NCBI GenBank assembly: GCA_007126575.1
Contig: SLBA01000176.1
Coordinates: 1-56,642 of the forward strand
Length of the DNA stretch: 56,642 bases
Direction: 5' to 3'
DNA from: Gemmatimonadota bacterium
GTDB taxonomy: Bacteria; Gemmatimonadota; Gemmatimonadetes; Longimicrobiales; Gaopeijiaceae
Position numbers and translations under genes: made by a program
Part shown: positions 23,303 to 29,612 of the stretch, piece by piece
Layout of the letters: each line of letters starts with the position of its first letter
How positions within the stretch are numbered: position 1 is the stretch's first letter
Notes under the pieces: model-generated
Seen by the model: only the letters and a program-made list of their open reading frames with translations
Database searches by the model: none
Told to the model about the DNA's origin: nothing

Positions 23303-24207
23303 CGGAAGGCCTCGGGGTGGAGGATCCGGGCGAGGCTCTCCGCCGACCGGCCGATATCGACCCCCGGGCTCTGGACCGACTCCGGCACCCGTCGGACGGA
23401 GAGTCGCTCGAGCGATCCGGGAATTCGTGCGCCCTCGGTCAGCAGGAGGAAGTCGGGCTCGCGCCGGATGATTTCCTCGACGCTCATGGGGGCATAGAGC
23501 GGGCCCTCGTCTCCGAACACGTTCTCGCCCCCCGCGATCGAGAGGAGTTCGTCGAGAAAGGTGCCGCTCGCCGCGACCCAGGGTGGGTCGCCCCCGAGCA
23601 GGAAGGCGACCCTCGGAGGCGGCAGCCCCTCGACCGACCGGCGCACCGCGTCGAGCTCCGCCATCAACTCGCGTTGGAGCTCCGCACCTCGTTCCGGCTC
23701 GCCCACCGCCGCCGCCAGGAGTCCGATGATCCGGTGAATGTCACCGATGGTATCCGGCCGAACCGCCAGGTGGGTGACGCCCAGGTTGTCGAGGGTCTCG
23801 GGGGTGGCGCGGTCCGAGGGGCCCTCGAAGCGGACCACCAGCTCCGGTCGAACACCAAGGAGCCGCTCCAGCGAGGGGTTCAGCCCCCCTCCGACCGAGG
23901 GGAGGCCGGCAAGGGCCTCGTCCCGATCGAAGTCGGTGCGGGCCACCAAGCGGTCGCGCACGCCGAGGGCGATCAGGATCCCGGTGGCCGAGGGCACGAG
24001 CGAGACGATGCGTTCGGGGGGATGACCGAGGTCCCAGCTTCGGCCCGCGTCGTCGACGAGTTCGACATCGTCCTCGACCGAGCGGGTGTCCGCCTCGGCC
24101 GACTTCTCGTCCACTCCGCCACAGCCGCCAAGGACCCAGAGGATGCCGATCAGGCACGAGACGAGGGCGGTGCGCCCGGGCCCCAGCCGGGGCCGCGTCG
24201 ACCTCAG
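23299..24207 (-). CDS. ABC transporter substrate-binding lipoprotein, BtuF-like; probable CTG start
   Basis: The mature part (PPERIVSLVPSATGILIALG, LGVRPELVV, AGGENVFGD) matches BtuF/FepB-type binding proteins. The first ATG/GTG/TTG in frame is GTG 24114, but starting there leaves no signal peptide. In-frame codons upstream encode Arg residues, a hydrophobic stretch and the lipobox LGGC at about 24132-24121, so the protein is probably a lipoprotein begun at a non-standard codon. The best placed is CTG 24207, which overlaps the upstream gene's TGA in a CTGA arrangement; CTG 24186 is an alternative. It delivers substrate to the permease and ATPase encoded next. Confidence 0.8.
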   Translation of the reverse strand: MRSTRPRLGPGRTALVSCLIGILWVLGGCGGVDEKSAEADTRSVEDDVELVDDAGRSWDLGHPPERIVSLVPSATGILIALGVRDRLVARTDFDRDEALAGLPSVGGGLNPSLERLLGVRPELVVRFEGPSDRATPETLDNLGVTHLAVRPDTIGDIHRIIGLLAAAVGEPERGAELQRELMAELDAVRRSVEGLPPPRVAFLLGGDPPWVAASGTFLDELLSIAGGENVFGDEGPLYAPMSVEEIIRREPDFLLLTEGARIPGSLERLSVRRVPESVQSPGVDIGRSAESLARILHPEAFR

Positions 24208-25250
24208 GGCCAGGCCCGGGCCGCACCGGAGGCCGGGGCGGGCGCGCAGGCGTCCCGGTACTGAAGCGACCAGTCGGCATCCTCGCCCCGCGCACCGAGA
24301 ATCGCGAGCCCCCGGGTTTCGGCGCCGAAGATCTCGAGGATCAGCTCCGGCGCCCGCTCGTCGATCACCGGACCCGAGGCGAGAACCCGCGGAACCGCCT
24401 TCGAATCACTGACACTCTGATACCAGAGCCAGAAGGGGGACCACCCGTCCCCGTCGTCACGGGCCAGGGCCAGGAAGGCGTACGCACTCTGCATCGCTCG
24501 CCCGACCTCGGGCGCGTCGCCGAAGACGAAGGTGGTGGCGAGAGCCGGGAATCCGGCCACATCGCCGATCTGCCGCTGATCATCGAGGATGTCGGGAATC
24601 GAAGGGGGCCAGGGGATCTCGGCCCGGGGGATGAGGTAGCGGCCCACCGAGAGAGCGGCCTCCCTCAGCGGGGTCGCCGCGATCGGGTCCGGGAAGGTCC
24701 CGGAGCGCAGCGCCCATCCGGGAAGGAGCCCCGCATCGATATCGGCCTTGCGCACCGCGACGAAGCGCGTCGCGTTCGTGGCCGCTCCTCTGAGTTCGAC
24801 TCGCCCCATCCCCGCCGGTCGCACCAGGCAGGTGGCCTCATCGCGCTCCACGGACCCGTCGGCGATCAGGGTGCCGGCCCGAAAGCCGCGGTGGAGCAGC
24901 ACGAATTCCGTGCCATCGTCCCAGCGGTCGAGGGGGAACCGTTCGACCAGATCGGGGGTGTCCTCCTCGTCCGGAAGGGCGTGGTATGCCCCGTCCCGCC
25001 ATTCGGCGACCGGGATCATCCGGGCCTCGTCCCCACTCCGCTCGGCCAGATAGACGAGGGGGCCCAGCGCGAGCGGCTCGAGAGGGCGCTCCTCGGCATC
25101 CCCTTCGGCCTCGACCTCGACGAGGGCCGAAGGAGGGGGCTCCGGGGGGCGAAGCTCCATCTCGAGCCCTCCCCATTCGACGTTGTCGCACCCGGGGAGT
25201 GCGGTTAGAATCACGCAGAGGGTGACGAGGGAAAAACCCTTGAAACGCAT
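24204..25250 (-). CDS. lipoprotein of unknown function upstream of the importer
   Basis: 348 residues from ATG 25250. The signal peptide MRFKGFSLVTLCVILTALPG ends in lipobox LPGC. The mature protein is a mixed alpha/beta sequence with many Trp, Asp and Pro residues. I recognise no domain. Its stop overlaps the probable CTG start of the importer's binding protein, so it is likely cotranscribed with the importer and may serve the same substrate. That is inference from gene order. A reading extended to 25793 would run into the divergent flavin reductase gene and is rejected. Confidence 0.75.
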   Translation of the reverse strand: MRFKGFSLVTLCVILTALPGCDNVEWGGLEMELRPPEPPPSALVEVEAEGDAEERPLEPLALGPLVYLAERSGDEARMIPVAEWRDGAYHALPDEEDTPDLVERFPLDRWDDGTEFVLLHRGFRAGTLIADGSVERDEATCLVRPAGMGRVELRGAATNATRFVAVRKADIDAGLLPGWALRSGTFPDPIAATPLREAALSVGRYLIPRAEIPWPPSIPDILDDQRQIGDVAGFPALATTFVFGDAPEVGRAMQSAYAFLALARDDGDGWSPFWLWYQSVSDSKAVPRVLASGPVIDERAPELILEIFGAETRGLAILGARGEDADWSLQYRDACAPAPASGAARAWP

Positions 25251-25386: not shown

Positions 25387-25866
25387 ATGAAAGAGGCGGA
25401 GCGTTTTCGCAGCGTGATGAGCCATTTCGCCACGGGAATCACCGTGGTGACCGGTGCCGACGCCGAGGGACAGGGAGTTGGGCTCACCGCGAACGCCTTC
25501 ACCTCGGTGAGCCTCCGGCCTCCACTGATTCTGGTCTGCCTCGCCAACGAGTCGCGTTCCAGGGAGGTCTTTCTCGCCACCTCCCGCTTCGCCGTCGGGA
25601 TCCTCCGGAGCGGAGACGAAGCGCTGGCCCATCGCTTCGCCGGCGACACGCGCGACGCCCGGTTCGACGACCTCGCCTTTCGCACCGAGGTGACCGGGGC
25701 GCCCGTGCTGGATCGGGCGCTAGCCTGGCTCGACTGCCGGCTCTGGGACTCGGTCGAGGCCGGAGACCACACCGTTCTGTTCGGCGAGGTCATGGCGTGT
25801 GGGGTGAGCGGAGACGCCGATCCGCTCGTCTTCTTCCAGGGGAGCTATCGTACGGTGACCCCGTGA
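25387..25866 (+). CDS. flavin reductase-like FMN-binding protein
   Basis: A 159-residue protein of the flavin-reductase split-barrel family. Landmarks are MSHFATGITVVTG, GLTANAFTSVSLRPPLILVCL, the SRSREVFLATSRFAVGIL segment and a C-terminal DPLVFFQGSYR. Such proteins reduce FMN with NAD(P)H for a monooxygenase partner or act alone. No partner monooxygenase is beside it. A purine-rich SD (aaagggggagg) precedes ATG 25387. Confidence 0.9.
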   Translation: MKEAERFRSVMSHFATGITVVTGADAEGQGVGLTANAFTSVSLRPPLILVCLANESRSREVFLATSRFAVGILRSGDEALAHRFAGDTRDARFDDLAFRTEVTGAPVLDRALAWLDCRLWDSVEAGDHTVLFGEVMACGVSGDADPLVFFQGSYRTVTP

Positions 25867-25908: not shown

Positions 25909-27366
25909 ATGAACTCGGCGTCGAACTGGCGTGGTGGGGTCCCGGCGTTCATGACCGGGCTCGCACTGCTCATGCTGGGTGAGGTGGCCGCGGGGCTCCT
26001 CCTCTACGGGGGGCCGGGATTCCTGCCTGCCCTCTCCGTGATCCTTGCGGTGCTCTTCGTTTCGCTGGCGGTCGGGGTGATGACCGACGACGGGGCGCGC
26101 GGAAGTGCCGCCGTCGAAAACGCCCGACGCCTTTGGCTCGCCCTGCTCTTCTCCTTCAGCCTGGCCGCCGTGTTCGCGGTCGGGTGGGAGATCTTCCGGG
26201 GATTCGGAGCGCTCGGACTCAGCCAGGGAATCGGGCTGGCGGTCCTGGTCGCGCTCCCCTTCTATTTCGGCGGCCGAATGCTCGGCCACCTGGCGGGACT
26301 CCCCGGAACCCGGGGGCGAGGGCGAGTGGCCGCCTCGGCCCTGCTGGGAGCCGCGGTCGGCGCCCTGGTCGTCGGCTACCTTTTCTTCCCGAACCTCTCG
26401 CCCACGGCGGTCATCCTGCTGTCTCTGGTCGCGGTTTCGGGGGGAGCGCTGGTTCATGGGTGGGCGCTCGACGAGGTCTTCTGGGTCGACCGCTCGGAAC
26501 GCCATGTCGGACGGTCCGGCATCATCGAAGTCGAACGATGGCTCCGGGGGAACCCGCGTACAGCCCACCGTGCGATCCTCGAAAACTCCCGACTTCGAGC
26601 GCTGGTCGACGGGCGGGGTGAGCCGGTGACCGCCGAGGAGCGGGCGGTGCTCTCCTTCGCCGAGTCGGTCCGACGGCCGGTCGTCGACCCGGTGGACTCC
26701 GCGGCGCCCGTGCCCCCCGAGAAGATCCTTTCGGTGGGGCTGGGCGCCGGGGTCCTGGGAGAGGCGATGCGTCGCCGATTCGGGACGGCGACCCACGACG
26801 TTCTGGCGGCCGACGCGGCGGGGATGCGCTTGGTACTCGACGAGCTCGAGGGGGTCGAGGGGGTCGAGGGCGAGGCCGGCTCCCATTCGAATCGCCCAGC
26901 GAAGGTGATCCAGCTCGACCCGACGGTGTTTCTCCACCAGGCGACGTCGCCCTTCGGGTCGGGTCCCGCCGACTGGATCCTGGTCGACCTGCTGAGCCTC
27001 CCGGGCGCCCCGGCGGGCGCCGATCTGCCCCCGGGGGCATTCGCCCGGCTGCGGGACCACCTTCGCCCGGGAGGGCTCCTGATCCTCTTTCCCCTCCTGG
27101 AACTCCCCGGTGGACCGGACCTCACGACCTCGGTCCTCGAAGCGGGGGGGGTCTTCCGGGAGTCCAGCCTCTACGTGGGGGGACGGGAAGTGGTCCCATC
27201 GGCGGATCTTCCCCGAGATCGCGGCTATCCCCGACTCCCCGCCCCGGCCGGGTCGAGAGGGGCCTTCCTCGTGGCCCGAGACCGACCCGGAGATCAGCCG
27301 TGGCCGGAGTCCGTCGAGGGGTTCCTTCGCGTCCCCCGGCTCGGAAGCCCGGGCCGGGCGTCATGA
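25909..27366 (+). CDS. six-helix membrane protein with degenerate spermidine-synthase-like domain
   Basis: 485 residues. The first 200 hold about six transmembrane helices (for example LALLMLGEVAAGLLLYG and VAASALLGAAVGALVVGYLFF). The last 250 form a Rossmann-like soluble domain: KILSVGLGAGVLGEAM, an acidic strand end (VLAADAAGM), VIQLDP, DWILVDLLSLPG and RLRDHLRPGGLLIL. This is the order seen in membrane-linked polyamine aminopropyltransferase-like proteins, but the glycine loop and catalytic Asp pattern are weak, so enzymatic activity is doubtful. Its TGA overlaps the ATG of the next gene (ATGA), which ties it to the Mre11/Rad50-like fusion. Confidence 0.72.
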   Translation: MNSASNWRGGVPAFMTGLALLMLGEVAAGLLLYGGPGFLPALSVILAVLFVSLAVGVMTDDGARGSAAVENARRLWLALLFSFSLAAVFAVGWEIFRGFGALGLSQGIGLAVLVALPFYFGGRMLGHLAGLPGTRGRGRVAASALLGAAVGALVVGYLFFPNLSPTAVILLSLVAVSGGALVHGWALDEVFWVDRSERHVGRSGIIEVERWLRGNPRTAHRAILENSRLRALVDGRGEPVTAEERAVLSFAESVRRPVVDPVDSAAPVPPEKILSVGLGAGVLGEAMRRRFGTATHDVLAADAAGMRLVLDELEGVEGVEGEAGSHSNRPAKVIQLDPTVFLHQATSPFGSGPADWILVDLLSLPGAPAGADLPPGAFARLRDHLRPGGLLILFPLLELPGGPDLTTSVLEAGGVFRESSLYVGGREVVPSADLPRDRGYPRLPAPAGSRGAFLVARDRPGDQPWPESVEGFLRVPRLGSPGRAS

Positions 27367-29612
27367 AGGTCGCTCACCTCTCCGACCTGCAGCTGGGGCT
27401 GCGCGTCTTTCCAAAGGTCGAGCGGGGATGGAATCTCAGGGAGCGGGACCTGGCGGCGATCTTTCACACTGCTGTCCAGGAGCTGGCGCGACTGGGACCC
27501 GACCTGGTGCTCCTGAGCGGAAACGTTTTCGATCGCCCCGACCCCCCCTCCACCGCCTTTCTGACGATCACTCGCGGGATCCGGACCCTTCAGGATCTCC
27601 TCCCCGGCGTTCCGATCCTCGCGATCGCGGGGGAGCGGGACACCCCCAGGGCCCCCGCGGACCCGGGTCCCGTGGCCGTGCTCGACGCCCTGCCCGGAGT
27701 CGAGGCGGCGTCGGGAGCTCCCCGCGCGGTGCACCTGAAGGCCCTCGGGGCCCACGTCCTCATGGTTCCCTACCGGGCCGCGATCCGCCCTCCCTTTCCT
27801 CAGCTCCGCCCCGATCCGTCGGCCCGCTGGAATCTCCTCCTCCTCAGGGGGAACCCCGGGGATCGACCGGGTGCCCTCGCACTCGATCCCGAGGGGTGGG
27901 ACTACGTGGCACTCGGGGGAGGACGCTCCGCGCGGGTCTGGGGACCCGAGCCGGGCCGAGTCCGTACGGCGGGATCCCTCGAGCGCCTGGGGGTCGACCC
28001 CTGGCGGGAGTCCGCGGTCGAGAAGGGGTTCTGGACCTTCGACCTGGTCTCGCACGAGGGCGAGTTTCACCCCCTTCCCGCGCGGCCGGTGATCGATCTG
28101 GCTCCGGTCCGCGTCGAAGAGGATTCCGGGGAGGGCACGCGGCGCCTCCGGGAGCTCCTCGAGGGCCTCCCCGGGGGGATCGAGGGCAAGATCCTCCGGG
28201 TCCGGCTTCGCGGCCCCCGGGCCGGGATCGAGGAGGGGGTCTCACCCGGACTCCTTTCGGCGATCCGGCGTCGCGCCGCGCATCTCGAGCTCCAGGCGGG
28301 GCCCGGTGACGAGCGGCTCCCGGAATCTCTGGCAGAGCGACCCGCCGCGGGCCCGGCGAGCAGGGGGGATCTCGTCTGGACCCCCACGGGACGGGAGCCT
28401 GGGGTCGAGTCCGAGGTGCGCCTCACGCCGGGACTGCTGGGCGTGATCGGCGAACGTCCCGAGGATCGCCTCCTCCTGAGCGAGCATTTCGGAGACCCAT
28501 CGGGCGATCCGCACCCCCGTCTCCTCTCCCTGCGGCTTCGGTGGCCGTCGCCCGAAGACCTCCCCTCTTCGGCCTTCCGCCCCTGGCGCTCCGGTCCGAG
28601 CCCCGATCCCGCCCGGCCCGGGGGCGTGGTCGCTCCCCGCATCGCCACGCGCGACCCGGCGCGCCTGCAGACGCTCAGGGCCGACTGGATCGAGGCGGTG
28701 GGCGACCTCGAGGCCATGAACCTCGAGTGGGTACGCGAACGTCAGGAGGCGGATTCGCGGCTGACCGCCTACCGGGATCGCGCCCGGGAGCTGCGGGGTC
28801 GGCTTCGAGCCGTCGAGGAGGCCGGGGCCGAGGCCGAATGCCCCACGTGCGGTCGTCCACTTGCCGAGGCTCATCCCGAGTTTCGCGATGCGCTGCGGGA
28901 GGAGTGGGAGGACGTGGTTCAGGACGGACAGTGGTGGAAACGGAGGAGGGAGCAGCTCGAGGAGAAGCCCGACACCCTGCGCGATCTGGACCGCCGGGTG
29001 CTGGAGCTGCAGTCCGAGCTCGAGGAGGCGGCCGAGGGGATCTTCCCTTCCGATCCGGAGGGCTCGTCCACCGCTGGAGATTCCCCGGCCACGGGAGATC
29101 CCGGCTCCGACACAGGTCCCCCGCCATCGCCCACATCCGCCTTTCTGCCACACGACCCGTTCGGTCTGGCCGGTGACCTTCTCGGCCGAATCACCGGGGG
29201 GCGCATCCAGGCGCTGGTCCCGGAGCCCGACACCGGGGCCTGGTTCGTCCGGAGTCTCGCGGGAGAGGTTCGGCGACCCGCCCCCGGCGACCTACCCCTC
29301 GTATCGGCGGCGATGCAGCTTGCGGTGGCGACCCGGGAGCGCGCGCCCTTCATCGTCCTCCGCCAGTTCGCGGCGACCACCGACGACGACGAGGTGGTGA
29401 GCCTCCTTCAGCTCCTGGGGGCGACCCGGTTGGCGATCCCCGTGCTGGTCCTGCTCACCCCCGCGCTCGCGGAGCGCATCCCGGAGCTCCTGGTCGGCGC
29501 GATCGAAGTCCAGCGCGACGACGATGGACGTGCCCGGATCCGGGAATCGGGCTCCGGACGGCCGGTCGTCACGGTTCCGGCGACAATTCGAGCAGCTCGC
29601 CCTCCAGCCTGA
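27363..29612 (+). CDS. single-chain pseudo-SbcD/SbcC (Mre11-Rad50-like) fusion with retained zinc hook
   Basis: 749 residues. Residues 1-240 follow the SbcD/Mre11 phosphoesterase order, but its metal ligands are changed: DxH reads DLQ (8-10), GD reads GN (53-54), GNHD reads GERD (90-93), the conserved His is Arg 162, and GHxH reads GGGR (185-188). Residues 350-385 resemble the Rad50 N-lobe with a lost P-loop (VIGERPEDRLLL). A charged helical arm (about 432-490) leads to the zinc-hook motif CPTCG at 493-497 and a return arm to 555. A Pro/Ser linker precedes a Rad50 C-lobe-like end: RITGGRI (609-615), signature replaced by APGDL, Walker B replaced by FIVLRQF. Hydrolytic activity looks lost; a structural, hook-mediated role is inferred. 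It overlaps the convergent hyuA end by 44 bases. Confidence 0.75.
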   Translation: MKVAHLSDLQLGLRVFPKVERGWNLRERDLAAIFHTAVQELARLGPDLVLLSGNVFDRPDPPSTAFLTITRGIRTLQDLLPGVPILAIAGERDTPRAPADPGPVAVLDALPGVEAASGAPRAVHLKALGAHVLMVPYRAAIRPPFPQLRPDPSARWNLLLLRGNPGDRPGALALDPEGWDYVALGGGRSARVWGPEPGRVRTAGSLERLGVDPWRESAVEKGFWTFDLVSHEGEFHPLPARPVIDLAPVRVEEDSGEGTRRLRELLEGLPGGIEGKILRVRLRGPRAGIEEGVSPGLLSAIRRRAAHLELQAGPGDERLPESLAERPAAGPASRGDLVWTPTGREPGVESEVRLTPGLLGVIGERPEDRLLLSEHFGDPSGDPHPRLLSLRLRWPSPEDLPSSAFRPWRSGPSPDPARPGGVVAPRIATRDPARLQTLRADWIEAVGDLEAMNLEWVRERQEADSRLTAYRDRARELRGRLRAVEEAGAEAECPTCGRPLAEAHPEFRDALREEWEDVVQDGQWWKRRREQLEEKPDTLRDLDRRVLELQSELEEAAEGIFPSDPEGSSTAGDSPATGDPGSDTGPPPSPTSAFLPHDPFGLAGDLLGRITGGRIQALVPEPDTGAWFVRSLAGEVRRPAPGDLPLVSAAMQLAVATRERAPFIVLRQFAATTDDDEVVSLLQLLGATRLAIPVLVLLTPALAERIPELLVGAIEVQRDDDGRARIRESGSGRPVVTVPATIRAARPPA

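Follow-up and report, generated by a model that had tools for sequence, protein, structure and literature searches.

The stretch of DNA analysed here (the window: contig SLBA01000176.1 of assembly GCA_007126575.1, 56,642 nucleotides) is contig C130 of a 3.68 Mb metagenome-assembled genome (MAG) of Gemmatimonadota, and its named relatives are likewise Gemmatimonadota MAGs. On its forward strand lie two overlapping genes, designated P1 and P2. P2 encodes a pseudo-SbcCD and P1 a membrane protein with a spermidine-synthase-like domain. The original prediction, made from the sequence alone, had joined the two genes through an ATGA overlap, and this was confirmed. At the junction, gtcATGAag, the ATG occupies 27363-27365 and the TGA 27364-27366; both frames are open.

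25909 to 27366, forward strand: P1, 485 amino acids, six-helix membrane protein with a C-terminal spermidine-synthase-like domain
27363 to 27366, forward strand: ATGA start/stop overlap of P1 and P2
27363 to 29612, forward strand: P2, 749 amino acids, pseudo-SbcCD, an SbcD-like domain and a shortened SbcC/Rad50-like part fused in one chain

The structure model of P2 (predicted local distance difference test score, pLDDT, 83.7) comprised a Mre11-like domain, a short coiled coil carrying the CPTC hook, and what remains of the Rad50 C-terminal lobe. The parts of the protein are as follows.

27363 to 28382, forward strand: pseudo-SbcD (Mre11-like) domain, residues 1-340
27630 to 27641, forward strand: degenerate motif III, residues 90-93, GERD in place of GNHD
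28383 to 28655, forward strand: poorly conserved stretch at the expected position of the Walker A lobe, without a Walker A motif
28656 to 28832, forward strand: first coiled-coil arm, residues 432-490, from the structure model
28839 to 28850, forward strand: zinc-hook motif CPTC, residues 493-496, from the sequence, cysteines invariant
28863 to 29039, forward strand: second coiled-coil arm, residues 501-559, holding the conserved stretch VVQDGxWWKRRREQL
29157 to 29582, forward strand: residues 599-740, remnant of the C-terminal lobe of the Rad50 ATPase, with degenerate signature and Walker B

The Mre11-like fold had MjMre11 as its best Foldseek match (E 4.7e-14, probability 1.00) and a profile match at 2.2e-19. 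P2 also matched the Mre11 and SbcD models of NCBIfam (3e-8 and 5e-6) and the Rad50 hook, all under the curated cut-offs; against the sbcd model it reached 26.5 bits with a cut-off of 77.65, whereas the SbcD of sister-family locus L237 passed with 80. The GNHD motif with its catalytic histidine is replaced by GERD in the window, and GGGR stands at the place of GHxH. For comparison across the family of the host we used residue numbers which we take to follow those of P. furiosus Mre11, and assigned D8, H10, D49 and H208, presumably, to metal site 1 and N84 to site 2. Neither N84 nor H85 was present in any of 56 family rows (mostly P/E/A and R were found instead) and H206 was retained in only 4, while D8, H10, D49 and H208 were all retained in 51. 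Of 22 canonical SbcD rows drawn from the phylum's other families, all had D8, H10, D49, N84, H85 and H208, and 21 had H206. Seven conserved metal ligands and an essential H85 are described for Mre11 (PMC4996933). The five family rows that did not keep all four putative site 1 ligands include those of the window and of both its genus relatives, as well as L114, in which some bases are unread. D49N was common to the window and both genus relatives, H208 was changed to R or P in these rows, and H10Q was found in the window.

With respect to the SbcC-like part, motifs were counted after leaving out three P2 loci without an SbcC-part match. The Walker A motif was found at 0/54 family loci in comparison with 17/17 canonical ones, the ABC signature (absent in the window) at 2/54 versus 17/17, and a loose Walker B pattern at 6/54 versus 17/17. 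The CxxC zinc hook between coiled-coil arms was present throughout, in 54/54 family and 17/17 canonical cases, and the C-terminal lobe of Rad50 was recognized in P2 by a profile match. Canonical SbcC proteins are 708-842 amino acids long; the family SbcC part, as cut by script, is mostly 370-570. Few parts of P2 are as conserved as the stretch that follows the hook (28866-28970), which also occurs in intact sister-family SbcC.

P2 was matched in 79 of 96 family genomes (weakly in G033) and P1 in 69, the latter by a single-sequence search; a profile finds more distant P1 relatives. Sixty stretches picked to cover the genera were examined together with the window, giving 54 P2 loci in 53 genomes. 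P1 stood directly upstream of P2 on the same strand in the window and at 44 of these 54 loci in all. A 4-base overlap joined 33 of the pairs (22 GTGA, 10 ATGA, 1 TTGA), and the remaining 11 lay within 10 bp. The proposal that two degraded enzymes form one coupled unit was supported, and the P1-P2 linkage is conserved across the family. This conserved gene order and overlap also led us to reject a chance overlap of unrelated frames.

The same neighbourhood was found around intact SbcCD genes. In sister families, the gene order of the window recurs at L237 and L204 as flavin reductase, P1, sbcD, sbcC and trpE, with sbcD and sbcC both intact, and L205 has the first four of these genes in the same order; the motifs of the L237 SbcD are intact. 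In nine sister-family genomes (G126, G142, G273, G296, G321, G337, G344, G368, G388), P1 and an intact-type sbcD shared contig and strand and lay no more than about 2 kb apart, with distances taken from search coordinates. They were about 3.4 kb apart in G206, about 14 kb apart in G101, and on different contigs in G312, G373 and G403. No such P1 was present upstream at L236, L238 or L203. From this synteny, the P1/P2 neighbourhood predates the decay, and the window genes are positional orthologues whose catalysis was lost in place. We consider it very probable that P1 is the positional orthologue of a membrane spermidine-synthase-like protein and P2 that of SbcD plus SbcC, and that in this family the nuclease motifs of SbcD and the ATPase motifs of SbcC disappeared while the two proteins became shortened, often fused, and translationally coupled to P1.

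25387 to 25866, forward strand: flavin reductase gene, adjoining P1 upstream (Pfam Flavin_Reduct, 1.5e-41; start codon inferred)

The flavin reductase gene is a conserved synteny marker, and its slot was kept in most family loci as well as L204, L205 and L237. Its divergent neighbour, at 24207-25250 on the reverse strand, encodes a lipoprotein-like protein without a family match, which was conserved in most family loci and in the same three sister-family loci. In one MAG (G009) the flavin reductase-P1-P2 locus occurred twice, on two contigs (L068 and L069), from either duplication or two strains in the bin.

In P1, six predicted membrane helices precede a beta-strand and Rossmann domain (structure model pLDDT 87.7).

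25942 to 26472, forward strand: P1 transmembrane part, residues 12-188, the constrained part (ratio of nonsynonymous to synonymous substitution rates, dN/dS, 0.068)
26482 to 27336, forward strand: P1 beta-strand and Rossmann domain, residues 192-476, with a spermidine-synthase fold but no DxxD, under relaxed constraint (dN/dS 0.265)

The solved folds closest to the C-terminal domain were spermidine synthases (Foldseek E 4.6e-7, probability 1.00, TM-score by target about 0.5), with a profile match to spermidine synthase at E 1.1e-12. The earlier description of about six helices and a Rossmann domain ordered as in aminopropyltransferases holds. The window P1 gave no Pfam match at E 1, and its single match in NCBIfam (E 0.17) was not to a spermidine synthase. 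The glycine loop, which had been called poor, reads VGLGAG and is not very poor; many relatives have GGGA or GGGS. Decay showed more clearly in the DxxD acidic pair, which we take to be a spermidine synthase motif. The pair is absent from the window P1 (VDLLS there), and of the rows compared only L204 and L205 have it; its second Asp was found in no family row having the domain. Several P1 relatives are missing the spermidine-synthase-like domain altogether.

Where separate SbcD-like and SbcC-like genes were present (L093, L095, L097, L101, L102, L104, L105, L107, L122), P1 was mostly short and without the Rossmann domain. The exceptions L108, L110 and L112 combined a long P1 with separate genes, and L103 and L106 had a fused P2 yet a short P1. 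At two loci of genus g12 (L118, L124) a gene for a lipoprotein-like protein of 246-247 amino acids overlapped the end of a short P1, at the place expected for P2.

Selection was estimated by comparing the window with the relative closest to it (dS about 0.6). Within P2, dN/dS came to 0.059 in the hook coil, 0.083 in the SbcD domain, 0.132 in the C lobe and 0.293 in the former Walker A stretch. Values for P1 were 0.068 for the helices and 0.265 for the Rossmann part, and the reference genes trpE and flavin reductase gave 0.080 and 0.098. Ratios were higher in a comparison with a second, nearly saturated relative (dS about 1.1), at 0.21-0.23 in the core parts and 0.43 in the C lobe. The P1 helices, the SbcD domain and the hook are under purifying selection of about the same strength as trpE. 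The pattern marks the P1 helices, pseudo-nuclease and hook as the constrained core, with P2 under selection also in genera without P1. Since the P1 Rossmann domain is relaxed relative to the helices and missing in several relatives, the sensing of polyamine-like ligands, which the original prediction had entertained, is weakened as a core role.

Taken as a whole, mechanism included, our reading is that of a conserved pseudo-SbcCD, hook-dimerised and usually membrane-partnered, retained as a scaffold; we give this a probability of about 0.42. P1 and P2 would be made together through coupled translation, and two P2 chains may bind zinc and dimerise through their hooks. Where P1 is present, it would contact the P2 pair and anchor it at the inner face of the membrane. 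The dead Mre11-like head may retain a binding role, for DNA or protein, and would no longer cut. A more specific version, in which a clade-wide dead SbcCD became a zinc-hooked, membrane-anchored tether or clamp, its six-helix partner derived from a decayed spermidine-synthase-like protein, and DNA-end processing passed to another SbcD-like/AAA pair, is rather doubtful.

Several observations weigh against the scaffold reading. In the gene-neighbourhood survey that had been proposed as a check, no family locus holding both genes had them apart, but P1 was lacking in the stretch at 10 of the 54 P2 loci, for one of which (L071) only 867 upstream bases were covered. Five of the ten (L070, L071, L072, L074, L079) formed one clade in a quick tree, with the flavin reductase directly upstream of P2. 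Genus g12 retains a short P1 but lacks P2, and in some sister-family genomes P1 and the intact sbcD lie further apart or on different contigs. P2 was still constrained without P1 in two genera, with dN/dS of 0.180 and 0.067 for the SbcD domain and 0.079 and 0.148 for the hook. Since P1 was lost repeatedly from loci where P2 continued to be selected, some lineages can do without P1, which argues against an obligate complex; these losses are the main evidence against a compulsory membrane role. P1 also stood near intact sbcCD before the decay, so that its proximity to P2 is in part inherited. Lastly, 39 of 73 ancestral invariant columns of the SbcD domain were not kept at 90 percent, a large general divergence, and the loss of the four catalytic or site-2 columns was not beyond this general loss (35 of the 69 others were also lost; Fisher p = 0.076).

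The presence of P1 beside intact sbcCD in sister families, and its repeated loss from loci where P2 remains constrained, would be expected if P2 acted alone, in the cytosol or on DNA, with the coupling an inherited neighbourhood tightened by genome compaction and no physical complex. We regard this as unlikely, although not strongly so, as 33 of the 44 pairs in many genera share the 4-base overlap and the P1 helices are strongly constrained. Less likely again is a role of P2 as regulator or partner of an intact SbcD-like/AAA_27 pair, for example through mixed hook dimers, with P1 secondary. The host has such a pair (G000:C185), in which a phosphoesterase with intact GNHD and GHxH adjoins an AAA_27 ATPase. 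Its SbcD-like gene is not a P2 orthologue, given a profile match of only E 6e-8 and a very long branch in a quick tree. The intact type is nearly confined to this family, being found in 22/35 family genomes compared with 2/115 others in a phylum sample (the family count assumes a complete listing of its rows); over all 96 family genomes it was present in 55. Within the family it goes with P2, by genome (53/79 with P2, 2/17 without) and by genus (27/32 versus 2/8, p = 0.0026), figures uncorrected for shared ancestry or genome completeness. This co-occurrence fits either a replacement of the lost activity or a partnership; on the other hand, 26 of the 79 P2 genomes, including five whole genera, had no intact-type match. 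A further SbcD-like gene with GNHD intact was seen at L123 (G037:C160), in a family genome also having P2.

It is improbable that the SbcD-like domain is a one-metal protein serving nucleotide binding or other chemistry. Such a protein would account for the four putative site 1 ligands all kept in 51 of the 56 rows with N84, H85 and H206 gone in nearly all, but the window and its two genus relatives have partly lost site 1 and are nevertheless constrained. We give very little credence to the pair being a decaying relic heading for loss: the P2 middle (0.293) and P1 Rossmann domain (0.265) evolve fast, but open frames in approximately 40 genera, an invariant hook and core dN/dS values near that of trpE already contradict it. 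A mobile or viral origin was rejected, as no relative was found in plasmids and none of 29 pattern matches was confirmed in viral contigs. A known defence system was also rejected, since the PADLOC matches of P2 were weak and confined to coil and hook (LmuB, best 1.4e-4).

Among known systems, P2 has in common with SbcCD and Mre11-Rad50 the Mre11-like fold, the similarity to the Rad50 C lobe and hook, and the slot of intact sbcD-sbcC; it differs in lacking the catalytic His, site-2 Asn, Walker A and signature, in its short coil, and in often being one fused chain. The intact pair at L256, which we take to be YhaO-YhaN-like, resembles P2 in placing an SbcD-like phosphoesterase beside an AAA_27 ATPase, but has GNHD and GHxH intact, matches P2 weakly and lies at another locus. 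P1 shares the spermidine-synthase fold of membrane spermidine-synthase-like proteins (NCBIfam MFS_SpdSyn, NF037959), and its L204 orthologue scored above the cut-off of that model (98.5 versus 40 bits). The window P1, in contrast, has six helices and no family match, DxxD is lost family-wide, and the domain is missing in several relatives. Eukaryotic DNA polymerase B-subunits are catalytically inactive. In these inactivated phosphoesterases, as in P2, a Mre11-like fold serves as a structural part; unlike P2, they sit in polymerases and have neither a zinc hook nor a membrane partner. A relationship of the polymerase B-subunits to the Mre11-like DP1 is described (PMC4996933).

Literature searches covering dead SbcD or Mre11, YhaO/YhaN together with SbcD, and the SbcCD of Gemmatimonadota found nothing on a dead SbcCD. 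The separate pieces are of known kinds; within the reach of these searches, their combination in a family-wide dead SbcCD with a coupled membrane protein is new. Mre11-Rad50 is among the most conserved of DNA-repair machines, and how much of its action is structural and how much cutting is debated. This family presents a natural separation of function, in which the head chemistry and ATP motor motifs were lost and the hook and coil remained under selection in dozens of genera. As the change occurred in place, with intact orthologues in sister families, it is testable. If the membrane partnership is real, an SMC-like repair complex would have been recruited to the envelope.

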